Positions 4,928 through 31,101 of a stretch of DNA of 64,000 bases are shown one piece after another. Made by a program: the position numbers and the translations under genes. The stretch covers positions 1,550,001-1,614,000 of the forward strand of contig NZ_CP147917.1 of NCBI RefSeq assembly GCF_039645965.1. The letters are read 5' to 3'. Under the pieces are notes generated by a model. That model was given only the letters and a program-made list of their open reading frames with translations, was not told the DNA's origin and ran no database searches. Every line of letters starts with the position of its first letter. Position 1 is the stretch's first letter. Origin of the DNA: Sulfurimonas sp. HSL3-2 (GTDB lineage Bacteria; Campylobacterota; Campylobacteria; Campylobacterales; Sulfurimonadaceae).

Positions 4928-6185
<1,258 letters not shown>

Positions 6186-14104: not shown

Positions 14105-14120
14105 TACTGTAAACGATTAT

Positions 14121-14135
14121 GCAATTGATGTTCTA
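14121..14135 (-). promoter_or_regulatory. Sigma-54-type promoter of the nifB operon
   Basis: On the minus strand: C-TAGAAC-ATCAA-TTGC-AT. The -24 GAAC and -12 TTGC are spaced as in the Campylobacter/Helicobacter sigma-54 consensus TGGAAC-N5-TTGCTT. Predicted start near 14109, leader about 71 nt. Confidence 0.7.
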
Positions 14136-14233
14136 GCACTATCTTGGAGATATACAACAAAAGAGTGACAATTTTGTATTTTTTGGAGAGTTACGTGTAA
14201 AGAGGAGTATTATAAATGTAGGTGAATAAAAAA

Positions 14234-15138: not shown

Positions 15139-15153
15139 TAGAACGCTATATGC
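15139..15153 (+). promoter_or_regulatory. Sigma-54-type promoter of the NifX-like/SIR2/ClpXP/NifS operon
   Basis: C-TAGAAC-GCTAT-ATGC-AAAT. Same core and spacing as the nifB and ferredoxin promoters. Predicted start near 15165, giving a leader of about 23 nt before the ATG at 15188. Confidence 0.65.
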
Positions 15154-15187
15154 AAATACCTCACTAAATTATATAAAGGCGTAGTTT

Positions 15188-20201: not shown

Positions 20202-20216
20202 TAGAATCAAAATTGC
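20202..20216 (+). promoter_or_regulatory. Sigma-54-type promoter of the 188-aa gene
   Basis: A-TAGAAT-CAAAA-TTGC-AT. The -24 ends in T instead of C (as in the nifH candidate), the -12 is perfect. Predicted start near 20228, leader about 26 nt. Confidence 0.55.
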
Positions 20217-20253
20217 ATTATTTGAGTTATAAATAAATCAAAGGAATAGTTCA

Positions 20254-26734: not shown

Positions 26735-26750
26735 CTTTATCTGAGTATTT

Positions 26751-26765
26751 GCAAGATGCGTTCTA
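26751..26765 (-). promoter_or_regulatory. Sigma-54-type promoter of the ferredoxin/110-aa operon
   Basis: On the minus strand: C-TAGAAC-GCATC-TTGC-AAAT. Predicted start near 26739, leader about 66 nt, containing the 19-nt shared element. Confidence 0.7.
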
Positions 26766-26876: not shown

Positions 26877-27266
26877 CTAATTATAAAGTTTCAATGTCTC
26901 TCCGACACTGACACGGTTTTCCCTCTGCTCTTTTGTGATGTTTTCTCTGTATGCTTGCGGATTAACGGCGGGGGAGAGTATGCCCTTCTTCTTATGCACG
27001 CGAATAACATAATCATCACTCTGTGTAAAGTGATCATTATACTCTTCGATGTACGGCATATCCCAGACTATACACCCTTCTGTCGGGCAGACATCGGCAC
27101 ATTTAGGCACGGCGGCGTCTACACACTCGATACATTTTTCCGGCTTGACATAGGTATATTCGGCATCCGTTAAAGGCGATTCGTCGGCACTTACGATCGC
27201 AGTCGCGGGACACTCCTCTATACAAGCATCACAGTTTATACATGTATCGGTGATAAGAACAGCCAT
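26877..27266 (-). CDS. 2[4Fe-4S] nif-type ferredoxin (second of three)
   Basis: 129 aa. Cysteines C9/C12/C15/C19 and C45/C48/C56/C60 plus C65, same architecture and WDMPY tail as the copies at 26278 and 27649. ATG shares its A with the stop of nifX (TAATG), so it is made together with NifX. The 200-bp gap after it carries the promoter of the next ferredoxin operon. Confidence 0.93.
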   Translation of the reverse strand: MAVLITDTCINCDACIEECPATAIVSADESPLTDAEYTYVKPEKCIECVDAAVPKCADVCPTEGCIVWDMPYIEEYNDHFTQSDDYVIRVHKKKGILSPAVNPQAYRENITKEQRENRVSVGETLKLYN

Positions 27267-27643
27267 TATGCACTCCTACTCTCTGCTTTGTGAAATATTC
27301 TTTGCAACCATAAGGGTGGATTATCATTTAACATCTCTTGCAGTTTTTTTGCAGCTTCTTCTATGCTCTCGCCTTCGGTAACACGTGCAGGGTGGATACC
27401 TGAGGCTTGAACCATCTTTGAAGCAGTCGGTCCGATCTGCGTACAGTACATTATGTCCGCGTCTCCGAGCGTCTTGATCTTGTAGTTTAACTTCTCCTGT
27501 TCACCCTCAGGCTCCTCTGAGCTGTCTACTACCTCTAAGAACTCGACTTTTTCTTTATCGACTTTGTAGATATAAAAACTTTTTGACCAGCCGAAATGCT
27601 GGTCTATTTTTTCACCTGTAGTCGATGCGAATGCTACGTTCAT
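27266..27643 (-). CDS. nifX: NifX, FeMo-co/NifB-co carrier
   Basis: 125 aa. MNVAFASTTGEKIDQHFGWSK is the NifX start, with the DQHFG motif, and GPTASKMVQASGIHPARV matches the GG(x)AA(x)...NIHPIKV region. NifX holds NifB-co and the VK-cluster on the way to NifEN. It lies between two ferredoxin genes, five bases after one and overlapping the other. Absence of nifE/nifN nearby is unusual, since nifX normally follows nifEN. Confidence 0.85.
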   Translation of the reverse strand: MNVAFASTTGEKIDQHFGWSKSFYIYKVDKEKVEFLEVVDSSEEPEGEQEKLNYKIKTLGDADIMYCTQIGPTASKMVQASGIHPARVTEGESIEEAAKKLQEMLNDNPPLWLQRIFHKAESRSA

Positions 27644-27648
27644 GATTC

Positions 27649-28038
27649 TTAAAACGAATCCATAACGTTCGCGTGTGATGTACGAGCATCCATAGATATA
27701 TCCATAAATGCTTGTTCTTTTACTGTAGGAAGCATAAGACCTTTTGATTTGTGTTCACGGATCTTATATGTTCCTGCTTCGTTTCCTTCTGCATAGTAGT
27801 CGTTGAACTCTACAGTATAAGGCATATCCCAAACGATAGAACCTTCAGTAGGACAAGCTTCAGCACAACGAGGTGTGTCAGCGTGGCTTACACACTCTAC
27901 ACAAGTCTCAGGTTTTACATAAAATCTTTCACCCTCAAACGGGTTTTTCTCATTGTCATCAGGTAGTATCGCAGCTACCGGACATTCAGATGCACACGCA
28001 TCACAGTTTATACACTCATCAGTTATCATTACAGCCAT
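27649..28038 (-). CDS. 2[4Fe-4S] nif-type ferredoxin (third of three)
   Basis: 129 aa. C9/C12/C15/C19 and C46/C49/C58/C62; the extra Cys found at 65 in the other copies is Ser (TEGSIVWDMP). Shares the C-terminal WDMPY tail. Ribosome site AAGGAGAAAAACA. 51 bp downstream of the Mop gene, in the operon starting at 29247. Confidence 0.93.
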   Translation of the reverse strand: MAVMITDECINCDACASECPVAAILPDDNEKNPFEGERFYVKPETCVECVSHADTPRCAEACPTEGSIVWDMPYTVEFNDYYAEGNEAGTYKIREHKSKGLMLPTVKEQAFMDISMDARTSHANVMDSF

Positions 28039-28089
28039 TGTTTTTCTCCTTGTTTTTTATACAAATAAATATGCAACTTTTATTCTGAA

Positions 28090-28512
28090 CTATGCGTTAC
28101 CGACTTTTAACGGATCTTCGACCGGTTCTATCTTGATATCCGTACCTCTTAAGAGCATTGTCGCACTACAACCCTCTTGCAGTTCAAGCTTGTCGTAAGC
28201 ACTTGAAGTGATAAGCGAGATGATCTCTCCGAAGTCGCTGTTCTTTAAAGTCAATTCACATAAAGAGTTATTTTTTCTGACGCATTGCAGAGTCACGGGT
28301 AAAGTGTTTTCTATGGAGACTTTTCCCGGACAATCCTTACTCACACAGACAGAACCCTCTTGAAAATTACAATAGACCTTATCTCCCACTTTTAACCATT
28401 TCGGTCTTTGCGATCTGATAAGCTGCATCTTTGTGTCACCGCTATTGACATGTATATATGTCACGACATCACTCTCTTCGATACCCTCTACCGTTGCTAT
28501 TAACTTATTCAT
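28090..28512 (-). CDS. Mop/TOBE-type molybdate-binding protein
   Basis: 140 aa with two TOBE-like beta-barrel repeats (residues ~1-65 and ~70-137). ATVEGIEESDVVTYIHVNSG and LKVGDKVYCNF fit the first; FGEIISLITSSAYDKLELQEGCSATMLLRGTDIKIE fits the second, ending as molbindins do. Small Mop proteins store or deliver molybdate (or tungstate). Between the Sel1-NifU gene and ferredoxins, it would supply Mo for FeMo-co. The central CVSKDCPGK pair is not usual for Mop. Confidence 0.8.
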   Translation of the reverse strand: MNKLIATVEGIEESDVVTYIHVNSGDTKMQLIRSQRPKWLKVGDKVYCNFQEGSVCVSKDCPGKVSIENTLPVTLQCVRKNNSLCELTLKNSDFGEIISLITSSAYDKLELQEGCSATMLLRGTDIKIEPVEDPLKVGNA

Positions 28513-28521
28513 ATTTGTTGC

Positions 28522-29247
28522 CTACATTAGATAAAGTACGACATTTTTGTCGATCATTGTTTCAAAATGATTCAACAGCATATCTGCCGTTGATGTAGAA
28601 CCCAAATGACACCCTGAACACGTTCCCTGATAGTTTAGCCATACCTGCGGTTTCTCTCCCGGTATATAGTTTACAAGTTCGATCCCGCCGCCGTCGATTG
28701 CAAGTGTCGGACGGATCTTCGTCTCAATAAGGTTTTCGACCAATGCTCTTTGTTTGATGGCGTCAAGTGCATGAAATATTTCATTTTTTTCTGTCGCTAT
28801 AGATGAGTTGCTCACATAAGTGATGATCTCTTGAGCCTGCTTGTTGTCATTGTATGCAGCGGTGATAAGATAACGCATAGCCTCTGCATTGTTCCCTTTT
28901 TGTTTATAAAGTATCCCGGTTTTTAGTTGAGAGTCCACATGTCCGCTGTCTGCACCCATCTTGTAGTATTTCAGCGCTTCATCTTCGTCTATACTGCCTA
29001 ACATCCCTTTTTCATAAAAGATGCCGAGGCTGTGCTGTGCTTTAGTGCTGCCCAGCTCTGCAGCCTTAAGAAACCATGATTTTGCAAGTTCATAGCTTTG
29101 AGTACATCCGCGTCCCTGCATATGCATGATAGCAAGATTGACCATCGCATCCGGATTATTGGGTGCGGCCTCTTCGAAAAGTCCATAAGCTCCTATATAA
29201 TTTTTTGATTCAAACTCTTGTATCGCTTTATTAAATATTTCGCTCAT
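28522..29247 (-). CDS. Sel1/TPR-repeat protein fused to a NifU C-terminal domain
   Basis: 241 aa. Residues ~1-145 are Sel1-like repeats (AKSWFLKAAELGSTKAQ is typical). Residues ~165-241 are a NifU C-terminal (Nfu) scaffold domain: IETKIRPTLAIDGGGIELV, then CSGCHLGS with C210 and C213, which bridge a [4Fe-4S] cluster between two subunits. The Sel1 part probably binds a client protein, the Nfu part delivers a cluster. First gene of the minus-strand operon to ferredoxin 26877, with a sigma-54-type promoter. The N-terminal IscU-like part of NifU is absent. Confidence 0.92.
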   Translation of the reverse strand: MSEIFNKAIQEFESKNYIGAYGLFEEAAPNNPDAMVNLAIMHMQGRGCTQSYELAKSWFLKAAELGSTKAQHSLGIFYEKGMLGSIDEDEALKYYKMGADSGHVDSQLKTGILYKQKGNNAEAMRYLITAAYNDNKQAQEIITYVSNSSIATEKNEIFHALDAIKQRALVENLIETKIRPTLAIDGGGIELVNYIPGEKPQVWLNYQGTCSGCHLGSTSTADMLLNHFETMIDKNVVLYLM

Positions 29248-29286
29248 ACTATTTTCCTTTTTCTATGTACATTTTAAACTCATTAT

Positions 29287-29301
29287 GCATCAATTGTTCT
29301 A
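29287..29301 (-). promoter_or_regulatory. Sigma-54-type promoter of the Sel1-NifU/Mop/ferredoxin/nifX operon
   Basis: On the minus strand: TAGAAC-AATTG-ATGC-ATAA. Predicted start near 29275, leader about 28 nt. Its -24 box shares two bases (TA of CTAG) with the -24 box of the divergent promoter at 29300-29314. Confidence 0.65.
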
Positions 29302-29314
29302 GAACTGTTTTTGC
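29300..29314 (+). promoter_or_regulatory. Sigma-54-type promoter of the divergent NifX-like operon
   Basis: TAGAAC-TGTTT-TTGC-ACTT. Predicted start near 29326, leader about 37 nt. The palindrome GTTCTAGAAC (29296-29305) serves as -24 box on both strands. Confidence 0.7.
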
Positions 29315-29362
29315 ACTTAAGTGTACGAGACCTGGTTAACAGCTGATATATAAGGAGCTAAA

Positions 29363-29746
29363 ATGATTGCAATTCCGGTTGACTCTGCATCCATCGATGC
29401 AAAATCATCAAAACTTTTTGGAAATGTAAAAATGTTTGCTATCTATAAACCGACAGAAGATGCTTTCTTTTTTATACAAAACAAGGAAAGCGGAAACGGC
29501 ATAAACACTGCCAAACTACTAAAGAAGTGGGACATAAAAAGCGTAGTCTATTCATATATGGGCAACGGTCCCTTCTCTGAACTGAACAAAGACGAAATTG
29601 ATGTCTATTACATAGGAAAAGAGCCTATGGGACTCTCTGATATCGTCAAAAAGATCGGGGAGGATTCGTTTATAAAAGTAGATGCCGACAATGCTTCGAC
29701 ATATCTTGATCCAGGTACATCATCCCAAAATTGTGAGTGTACATGA
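29363..29746 (+). CDS. NifX/NafY-family cofactor-binding-like protein
   Basis: 127 aa. MIAIPVDSASIDAKSSKLFGNVKMFAIY is the dinitrogenase iron-molybdenum-cofactor domain start; NTAKLLKKWDIKSVVYSYMGNGPF matches the central part. The C-terminus CECT adds two Cys not typical for the family. A third stand-alone member in this window. Ribosome site AAGGAG. Ends in an ATGA overlap with the next gene. Confidence 0.8.
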   Translation: MIAIPVDSASIDAKSSKLFGNVKMFAIYKPTEDAFFFIQNKESGNGINTAKLLKKWDIKSVVYSYMGNGPFSELNKDEIDVYYIGKEPMGLSDIVKKIGEDSFIKVDADNASTYLDPGTSSQNCECT

Positions 29747-29967
29747 AAACAAATGAGATACTAACGACAGAGATGCAACAGATCAAGGCTATGATAATCG
29801 ATACCGTAACACAGCGCGATGCGTTTAAGACCGAAATGGAATTATGGTATCAGGAACATCCAAAACTACACTATCCGAATATGAAAAACCTCATACTGAT
29901 AGATGCGACACTGTCCAAGCTTGACAGTTTCTATAAGAAGTTATGGGATTATCATAATGCAAAGTAG
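29743..29967 (+). CDS. Small helical protein, 74 aa, nif operon
   Basis: Coupled to the preceding gene by ATGA. Fully helical, with QIKAMIIDTVTQRDAFKTEM and IDATLSKLDSFYKKLWDYH forming a probable helical hairpin. It resembles in shape, but not clearly in sequence, the Rop-like protein at 10209. Function unknown. Confidence 0.75.
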   Translation: MKTNEILTTEMQQIKAMIIDTVTQRDAFKTEMELWYQEHPKLHYPNMKNLILIDATLSKLDSFYKKLWDYHNAK

Positions 29968-29970
29968 TCT

Positions 29971-30573
29971 ATGAGCGAGACATACAAGAAAAAAGCCAGA
30001 CTTATAGATGAAATATCCGATATAGAGCAGTATAAGCCTATCTTGGAGAAAGACAGTTTTAAAAAAGATGAGCCTCATTGGAGAAGTATCAGTAAGAACA
30101 CGATCACGCTTTTTCAGGTGCTCATCGACCAAGACCTGAGAGATCTTGTAAATGTTCTGAGACATTATCCAATATATACCGAGTGGGTATGTGAGCATTT
30201 TAGATATGCCTATAGTTACAGCGAGAACGAAGCGGACATCGATGCGGCTTCTGAACTCCTTGTGCTTGGAGAAGAGCACTTTTCAAAACAGTTTGTAAGA
30301 AACGTCGTACGTAAACTTCCAAGGTGTGATGATATGAGTGTCGAAGAACTTTCAAAACTGGCTTTACATGTAGAGCAGAACCATAGCGACTGGCACCCGA
30401 TAGTGACCAACTATCTGTGCGACAATATTACAAAAGCGGTTAACAGATCGAACCTGCATCCGCTGCAGCGGATAGTCGTGACAAAACCGATACTGAGCAT
30501 AAAGCGTAAAGAGACCTACATATATGATGCCGAAGACCGTGATGCGGTTTTAGACATACCCTATATGAACTAA
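29971..30573 (+). CDS. Unknown 200-aa protein in nif operon
   Basis: Not recognised. Mostly helical with no membrane segments. WHPIVTNYLCDNI and PIYTEWVCEHFRYAYS have spacing reminiscent of helical repeat (HEAT/LRV-like) folds, but I cannot confirm repeats. Only three Cys. Follows the small helical protein by 3 bp and shares the NifX-like operon promoter. Confidence 0.75.
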   Translation: MSETYKKKARLIDEISDIEQYKPILEKDSFKKDEPHWRSISKNTITLFQVLIDQDLRDLVNVLRHYPIYTEWVCEHFRYAYSYSENEADIDAASELLVLGEEHFSKQFVRNVVRKLPRCDDMSVEELSKLALHVEQNHSDWHPIVTNYLCDNITKAVNRSNLHPLQRIVVTKPILSIKRKETYIYDAEDRDAVLDIPYMN

Positions 30574-30588
30574 AAAAATGGAGATAAG

Positions 30589-31101
30589 ATGGATAAAGAA
30601 ACACTAACACAAGACCTTTTAAAACATGCGAGAAACGCTTTTGAAACGGCATCTACAATACATGACAACCAAAGGGTTGAAGTCTATCTTAACGACGGCG
30701 TGGCAAAGACATCGGATGTCTTGGATGAAGGGGATGAGATCGTCTATACTCCCTCACGTATACTTTGTTATCAGATACACGGGTATGACTACTTAGAAGA
30801 TGAGATAAAGACCTGGATAGACTTTGCAAGAAAACTGCAGCAGCCTACAGATGACGGAATGCCGCTTCCCGAACCTACAAGTGTCGAGAAGTCGATACGC
30901 GAACTGATAGACGAGATCGCAAAAAGAAACGGCGTGAACAGAGATATGGTCAGCTCTTTTGAGGTATTTGCAAACCTGCCTATCGACCTGCTTGGAACGA
31001 TAGAACAGCAGATAATCGAATACTGGTGGAGTGCGGACGAAGAGGAAAACGGAAAGAAACTGGCACTTGCACAGATAGAAGAGGCTTTAAAAGGGGTCTA
31101 A
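30589..31101 (+). CDS. Unknown 170-aa protein ending the NifX-like operon
   Basis: Not recognised. N-terminal helix, then a beta-rich part (RVEVYLNDGVAKTSD, GDEIVYTPSR) with CYQIHGYDYLED, then a helical C-terminal half with VEKSIRELIDEIAKRNG. Acidic. Good ribosome site (GGAGATAAG), 15 bp after the 200-aa gene. Converges on the Sel1 gene at 31098. Confidence 0.75.
   Translation: MDKETLTQDLLKHARNAFETASTIHDNQRVEVYLNDGVAKTSDVLDEGDEIVYTPSRILCYQIHGYDYLEDEIKTWIDFARKLQQPTDDGMPLPEPTSVEKSIRELIDEIAKRNGVNRDMVSSFEVFANLPIDLLGTIEQQIIEYWWSADEEENGKKLALAQIEEALKGV

Follow-up and report, generated by a model that had tools for sequence, protein, structure and literature searches.

A palindromic element predicted to serve as common -24 box of two divergent sigma-54 promoters in a Sulfurimonas nif island

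In the nif island of a Sulfurimonas genome two operons diverge from a common intergenic region, and midway between them lies a perfect 10-bp palindrome, GTTCTAGAAC. This arrangement raises the question of whether one -24 element can serve two sigma-54 promoters that face in opposite directions and, if so, which sigma-54 factor reads it and what the sharing means for the two operons. The window is the whole stretch of DNA analysed here, 64,000 nucleotides (G000:C1:1550001-1614000) within a 2.24-Mb genome. The palindrome has a single copy in the window, compared with 0.05 expected by chance, and the predicted features at this site are the following:

29296..29305, no strand: overlapping -24 elements of both promoters, palindrome GTTCTAGAAC, conserved in relatives
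29300..29315, plus strand: rightward sigma-54-type promoter TAGAAC-TGTTT-TTGCA, predicted start 29326, from matrix and conservation
29286..29301, minus strand: leftward sigma-54-type promoter TAGAAC-AATTG-ATGCA, predicted start 29275, from matrix and conservation

Each strand of the palindrome reads TAGAAC, and the two boxes have the bases 29300-29301 in common. On the plus strand TAGAAC (29300-29305) is followed by N5, TTGC (29311-29314) and an A, and on the minus strand TAGAAC (29301-29296) is followed by N5, ATGC (29290-29287) and again an A, with G(-24), G(-13) and C(-12) present at the standard sigma-54 spacing on both strands. Counting with the C placed at -12, we predict starts at 29275 (minus), 28 bases upstream of the start codon at 29247, and at 29326 (plus), 37 bases upstream of the start codon at 29363, so that both leaders would be short; a preliminary description of this DNA had arrived at the same two positions. 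Its assignment of the boxes to the sigma-54 -24 element also stands, with the correction that the canonical GG at -25/-24 is absent from both boxes, the base at -25 being A. As this A is found at the pair and across the nif island, we assign the pair to a variant, not a canonical, class of sigma-54 promoters. To judge from its letters, the palindrome is a shared DNA element that can be read in both orientations, as in a bidirectional promoter.

The genes on the two sides, and one further predicted promoter among them, are as follows:

28522..29247, minus strand: Sel1-repeat protein with a NifU-like domain at its C terminus, encoded by the first leftward gene
28090..28512, minus strand: TOBE/Mop-type protein, probably molybdate-binding, leftward operon
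28072..28087, minus strand: further nif-type sigma-54 site CAGAATAAAAGTTGCA, upstream of the ferredoxin gene
27649..28038, minus strand: 4Fe-4S ferredoxin, leftward operon, with its own sigma-54-type site upstream
27266..27643, minus strand: NifX with a Nitro_FeMo-Co domain (nifX is its best match in NCBIfam, at 110.6 bits with a cut-off of 112)
29363..29746, plus strand: NifX-like protein with a Nitro_FeMo-Co domain, product of the gene that opens the rightward operon
29737..29967, plus strand: small protein of unknown function with no Pfam hit, rightward operon, likely start ATG at 29743
29971..30573, plus strand: unknown protein, rightward operon
30589..31101, plus strand: unknown protein, rightward operon

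The additional site CAGAATAAAAGTTGCA is the same in G004 and near-identical in G003 and G001. Because the ferredoxin and NifX genes have this site of their own, competition at the palindrome should mainly affect the Sel1-NifU and Mop-like genes. In the rightward operon, the small protein has homologues in relatives, and the gene at 30589..31101 is the most widely kept among the relatives inspected. The two proteins encoded at 29971-31101 have no Pfam or NCBIfam match and recur beside the pair in relatives; they are uncharacterised nif-associated genes.

Both promoters were scored with a position matrix derived from 29 nif-island sites that did not include the pair, in a scan of ~228,000 positions in 114 kb; the minus site (18.5 bits) ranked 11th and the plus site (12.0 bits) 24th, on a matrix that is not fully independent, as its training sites were chosen by their core pattern. 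At the score of the plus site, 24 sites were observed in the 114 kb, compared with 3.4 in Markov sequence, and a head-to-head pair appeared in none of 30 Markov replicates. Searches for canonical TGG-type sites over the whole window gave no excess over chance.

Among the named genomes, the nearest relatives of the window carry the label Sulfurimonas or Sulfurimonadaceae. When the same palindrome was sought in relatives, a comparison already named in the preliminary description, it was found exact and with both -12 elements kept in the same-genus genomes that hold the locus (G001, G003, G004 and G007), and several relatives with the locus carry the exact palindrome or a one-base variant. Among 47 loci from named genomes, one is incomplete, and a head-to-head pair is present in 42 of the 46 that can be read; of the remaining four, three lack a convincing pair and one shows a distant match only. 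The gap between the hexamers in these 42 loci is -2 (n = 11), 2 (n = 1), 4 (n = 1), 5 (n = 19), 6 (n = 5) or 10 bp (n = 5), corresponding to distances between the G(-24) guanines of 3, 7, 9, 10, 11 or 15 bp, and it broadly follows lineage, with -2 in Sulfurimonas-like, 4-6 in Sulfuricurvum-like and 10 in Sulfurovum loci. In the other genera (Sulfuricurvum, Sulfurovum) the boxes lie 2-10 bp apart, each with its own -12 element. Halves that separate in this way without either losing its -12 element are more readily understood as two promoters than as one palindromic operator, which bears out the earlier view of two divergent sigma-54-type promoters with a common -24 palindrome. The predicted back-to-back layout is the rule among relatives that share the nif locus, and the assignment of GTTCTAGAAC as the shared -24 element of two divergent sigma-54 promoters is, at the level of sequence, well supported.

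We also scanned the genome with the pattern TRGAAC-N5-WTGC. Promoters of the nif island follow TAGAAY-N5-WTGCA, with A at -25, whereas flagellar promoters follow TTGGAAC-N5-TTGCT. Where an intergenic TAGAAC site is closely followed by a gene start, the gene belongs to the nif island and the base after WTGC is A. The TGGAAC sites lie before hook, flagellin, cap and other flagellar-like genes and have T as that base; these genome-wide statements rest on pattern searches, and the flagellar genes were named from their N-terminal sequences, not from a family search. A relaxed scan found 14 island sites, with A at -25 in 13 and C in one, and one of the sites precedes rpoN2. Single nif-type sites in the window include:

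5918..5933, minus strand: nif-type sigma-54 site GAGAATGATGGATGCA, upstream of nifH
14120..14135, minus strand: nif-type sigma-54 site TAGAACATCAATTGCA, upstream of nifB
15139..15154, plus strand: nif-type sigma-54 site TAGAACGCTATATGCA
20202..20217, plus strand: nif-type sigma-54 site TAGAATCAAAATTGCA
26750..26765, minus strand: nif-type sigma-54 site TAGAACGCATCTTGCA, upstream of another ferredoxin gene

The 41-kb nif/rpoN2 stretch of G004 likewise holds nine TAGAAC sites and no TGGAAC site. At the nif sites of ten genomes with two sigma-54 factors, G occupies -25 in 2 of 76 cases, against 13.8 expected from local composition, while in three genomes with RpoN2 only it does so in 13 of 32, against 6.6 expected, a contrast that comes from few lineages and not from independent events. 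G031 is an exception, having only RpoN2 and yet mostly A at -25. We take these counts to suggest, as a hypothesis, that in genomes which also have RpoN1 an A at -25 is the mark of RpoN2 promoters. At the palindrome the A is also required by geometry, since two TRGAAC boxes that overlap symmetrically by 2 bp must have TA as their common bases, which puts A at -25 on both strands. The AG box at the pair is the nif-island version of the -24 element, and it is probably read by the second sigma-54.

An rpoN gene is present twice in the genome, at 1196346 and at 1517801; the two products are 42% identical and fall into separate, fully supported groups, and the genes for RpoN2 and NifA lie close to the nif island. 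Only two strong NtrC-type activators are encoded in the genome. NifA, at 1505025 and ~13 kb from rpoN2, scores 519 bits against TIGR01817 (cut-off 528.85); the other, at 316023, is of the response-regulator type, resembles FlgR and ends shortly past the AAA+ domain. The genome therefore encodes both partners on which a sigma-54 promoter depends, the sigma factor itself and an activator of the enhancer-binding kind. RpoN2 forms a clade of its own with its own promoter class, the two being linked by location and co-occurrence. The RpoN box reads VRRTIAKYR in RpoN1 and VRRSIAKYR in RpoN2, and its two arginines, which are required for -24 binding in other bacteria (PMC7175178), are kept in both and are followed by T in RpoN1 and by either S or V in RpoN2. 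The T-to-S change was considered as the sole cause of A(-25) and rejected, as G017 and G033 have S yet use GG at the pair. The rpoN2 gene has a nif-type promoter at G000:C1:1519128-1519143, 88 bp before its start and conserved in relatives, by which it probably regulates itself.

With respect to the activator, canonical NifA sites (TGT-N10-ACA) were not enriched upstream of 50 sites (2 found, 2.3 expected). A dyad that differs from TGT-N10-ACA, ACAANNTTGT, precedes nifH, nifB and several others in several genera at a distance of 63-98 bp, and it is found at 11 promoters against 1.0 expected, many of those sequences being homologous; we regard it as a candidate NifA site in these nif loci. Two copies in the window are:

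5996..6005, no strand: candidate enhancer ACAANNTTGT, upstream of nifH
14168..14177, no strand: candidate enhancer ACAANNTTGT, upstream of nifB

No ACAANNTTGT dyad lies within 300 bp of the pair, and near-matches to it in the pair loci are few, below the expectation of ~0.49 per 600 bp.

The explanation that best accounts for these data, to which we assign a probability of roughly 0.7, is that two divergent promoters share one -24 box, depend on RpoN2 and NifA, and exclude each other. One promoter would serve the Sel1-NifU, Mop, ferredoxin and NifX genes and the other the NifX-like gene and its partner genes, both being read by RNA polymerase with the second, nif-dedicated sigma-54 (RpoN2) and activated by NifA. 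RpoN2 would read TAGAAY-N5-WTGCA, with A at -25 and A at -11, and RpoN1 would read TTGGAAC-N5-TTGCT at flagellar genes, A(-25) keeping RpoN1 off the nif promoters. With the G(-24) guanines of GTTCTAGAAC only 3 bp apart, one bound holoenzyme must, we infer, exclude the other. Sigma-54 closed complexes occupy the DNA from about -34 to -5, and with this footprint and the spacing of 3-15 bp two holoenzymes should not fit together in any of the genomes with a pair. Each binding event would then commit the shared site to one operon and tie the outputs of the two operons together. A fuller version, in which nif-dedicated holoenzymes with altered -25 recognition compete at the symmetric -24 element, the nif operons fire alternately, and the A at -25 both insulates them and permits the overlap, is possible but in our view doubtful as a whole.

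Such a perfect palindrome, 10 bp long and placed midway between divergent operons, is also typical of the operator of a dimeric regulator, in which case the -12-like sequences would be coincidental. We give this almost no credence, because most relatives split the palindrome by 2-10 bp, each half keeping N5 and its own -12 element, a change that a dimer site would not tolerate, and because the same half-site stands singly before many other nif genes. That a single promoter works and the other is a by-product of the symmetry would agree with the lower score of the plus site (12.0 vs 18.5 bits), but we consider it highly improbable, as both -12 elements are conserved, even in loci with separated boxes, and each predicted start leaves a short leader. 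The main rival accepts both promoters and dispenses with meaningful competition, occupancy being so low that the operons behave independently, as at basal E. coli sigma-70 bidirectional promoters. The latter compete only when one side is strongly activated, not basally (PMC12825309), and the lack of a candidate enhancer near the pair means that the promoters here may be weak. Against this, the close spacing is kept across genera, though compactness alone could explain it. Sigma-54 closed complexes are, moreover, stable and long-lived, which favours occupancy, and on balance we judge independence unlikely, if a serious contender.

The A at -25 could likewise reflect base composition or drift, RpoN1 and RpoN2 being interchangeable at nif promoters. 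The genomes with two sigma-54 factors are indeed AT-richer (G+C 37-48%, vs 50-57% in the RpoN2-only genomes) than the GG-using G017 and G033, and in-ORF matches give an A/G contrast between the genome groups similar to that at nif sites. However, the groups overlap in the chance that GAAY is preceded by G (0.09-0.25 with two sigma-54 factors, 0.20-0.21 with RpoN2 only), and composition cannot explain why this very genome has G at flagellar and A at nif sites, which makes such an origin distinctly unlikely.

The proposed RpoN2-dependent pair resembles the situation in Rhodobacter/Cereibacter sphaeroides, where paralogous sigma-54 factors serve nif (RpoN1, with NifA) and flagellar genes (RpoN2, with its own activator) and are discriminated at -11 (PMC11999139; PMC3162934). 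In contrast to R. sphaeroides, the classes here differ at both -25 (A vs G) and -11 (A vs T), in another phylum; what is new here is the difference at -25, together with the sharing of a -24 box. In the E. coli bidirectional promoters a pseudo-symmetric element engages polymerase in two orientations (PMC12825309, in which sigma-54 is not mentioned); that symmetry is centred on sigma-70 elements, whereas here it is centred on the sigma-54 -24 element and an activator is needed. Two divergent sigma-54 promoters between related operons are also indicated by the title of Lutz et al. 1990, cited in PMC3844500, on divergent NtrA-dependent promoters in the E. coli hydrogenase 3 gene cluster. Nitrogen fixers with two rpoN genes include, according to their abstracts, the rhizobia Bradyrhizobium DOA9 and Mesorhizobium loti R7A, the latter with one rpoN on the symbiosis island; these abstracts report no altered -25 base or overlapping -24 elements. 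Our literature search found no paper joining two rpoN genes with Sulfurimonas, nor one on nif regulation by a second sigma-54 in Campylobacterota. If the proposal is correct, paralogous sigma-54 factors have a second route to avoid cross-talk, by altering the -25 base of the near-universal GG, and sigma-54 motif scans that demand GG would miss the nif-type regulon. The relatives, in turn, provide a natural spacing series (3, 7, 9, 10, 11 and 15 bp) for tests of sigma-54 competition.

Further predicted sites lie outside the window. A second head-to-head nif-type pair, 12 bp apart and also present in G004, is found at G000:C1:1526928-1526971, between probable nifE/N-like and hemerythrin-like genes (named by resemblance only). 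A divergent pair at G000:C1:1512015-1512151, ~105 bp apart, has one ACAANNTTGT dyad between its members, which is possibly a shared enhancer. Finally, TGGAACAATTTTTGCA at G000:C1:1200041, 3-4 kb from rpoN1, has no ORF of 60 aa behind it and is found in a similar place in G001, G003, G004 and G007; it is a putative orphan sigma-54 promoter, perhaps for a small RNA or a small gene.
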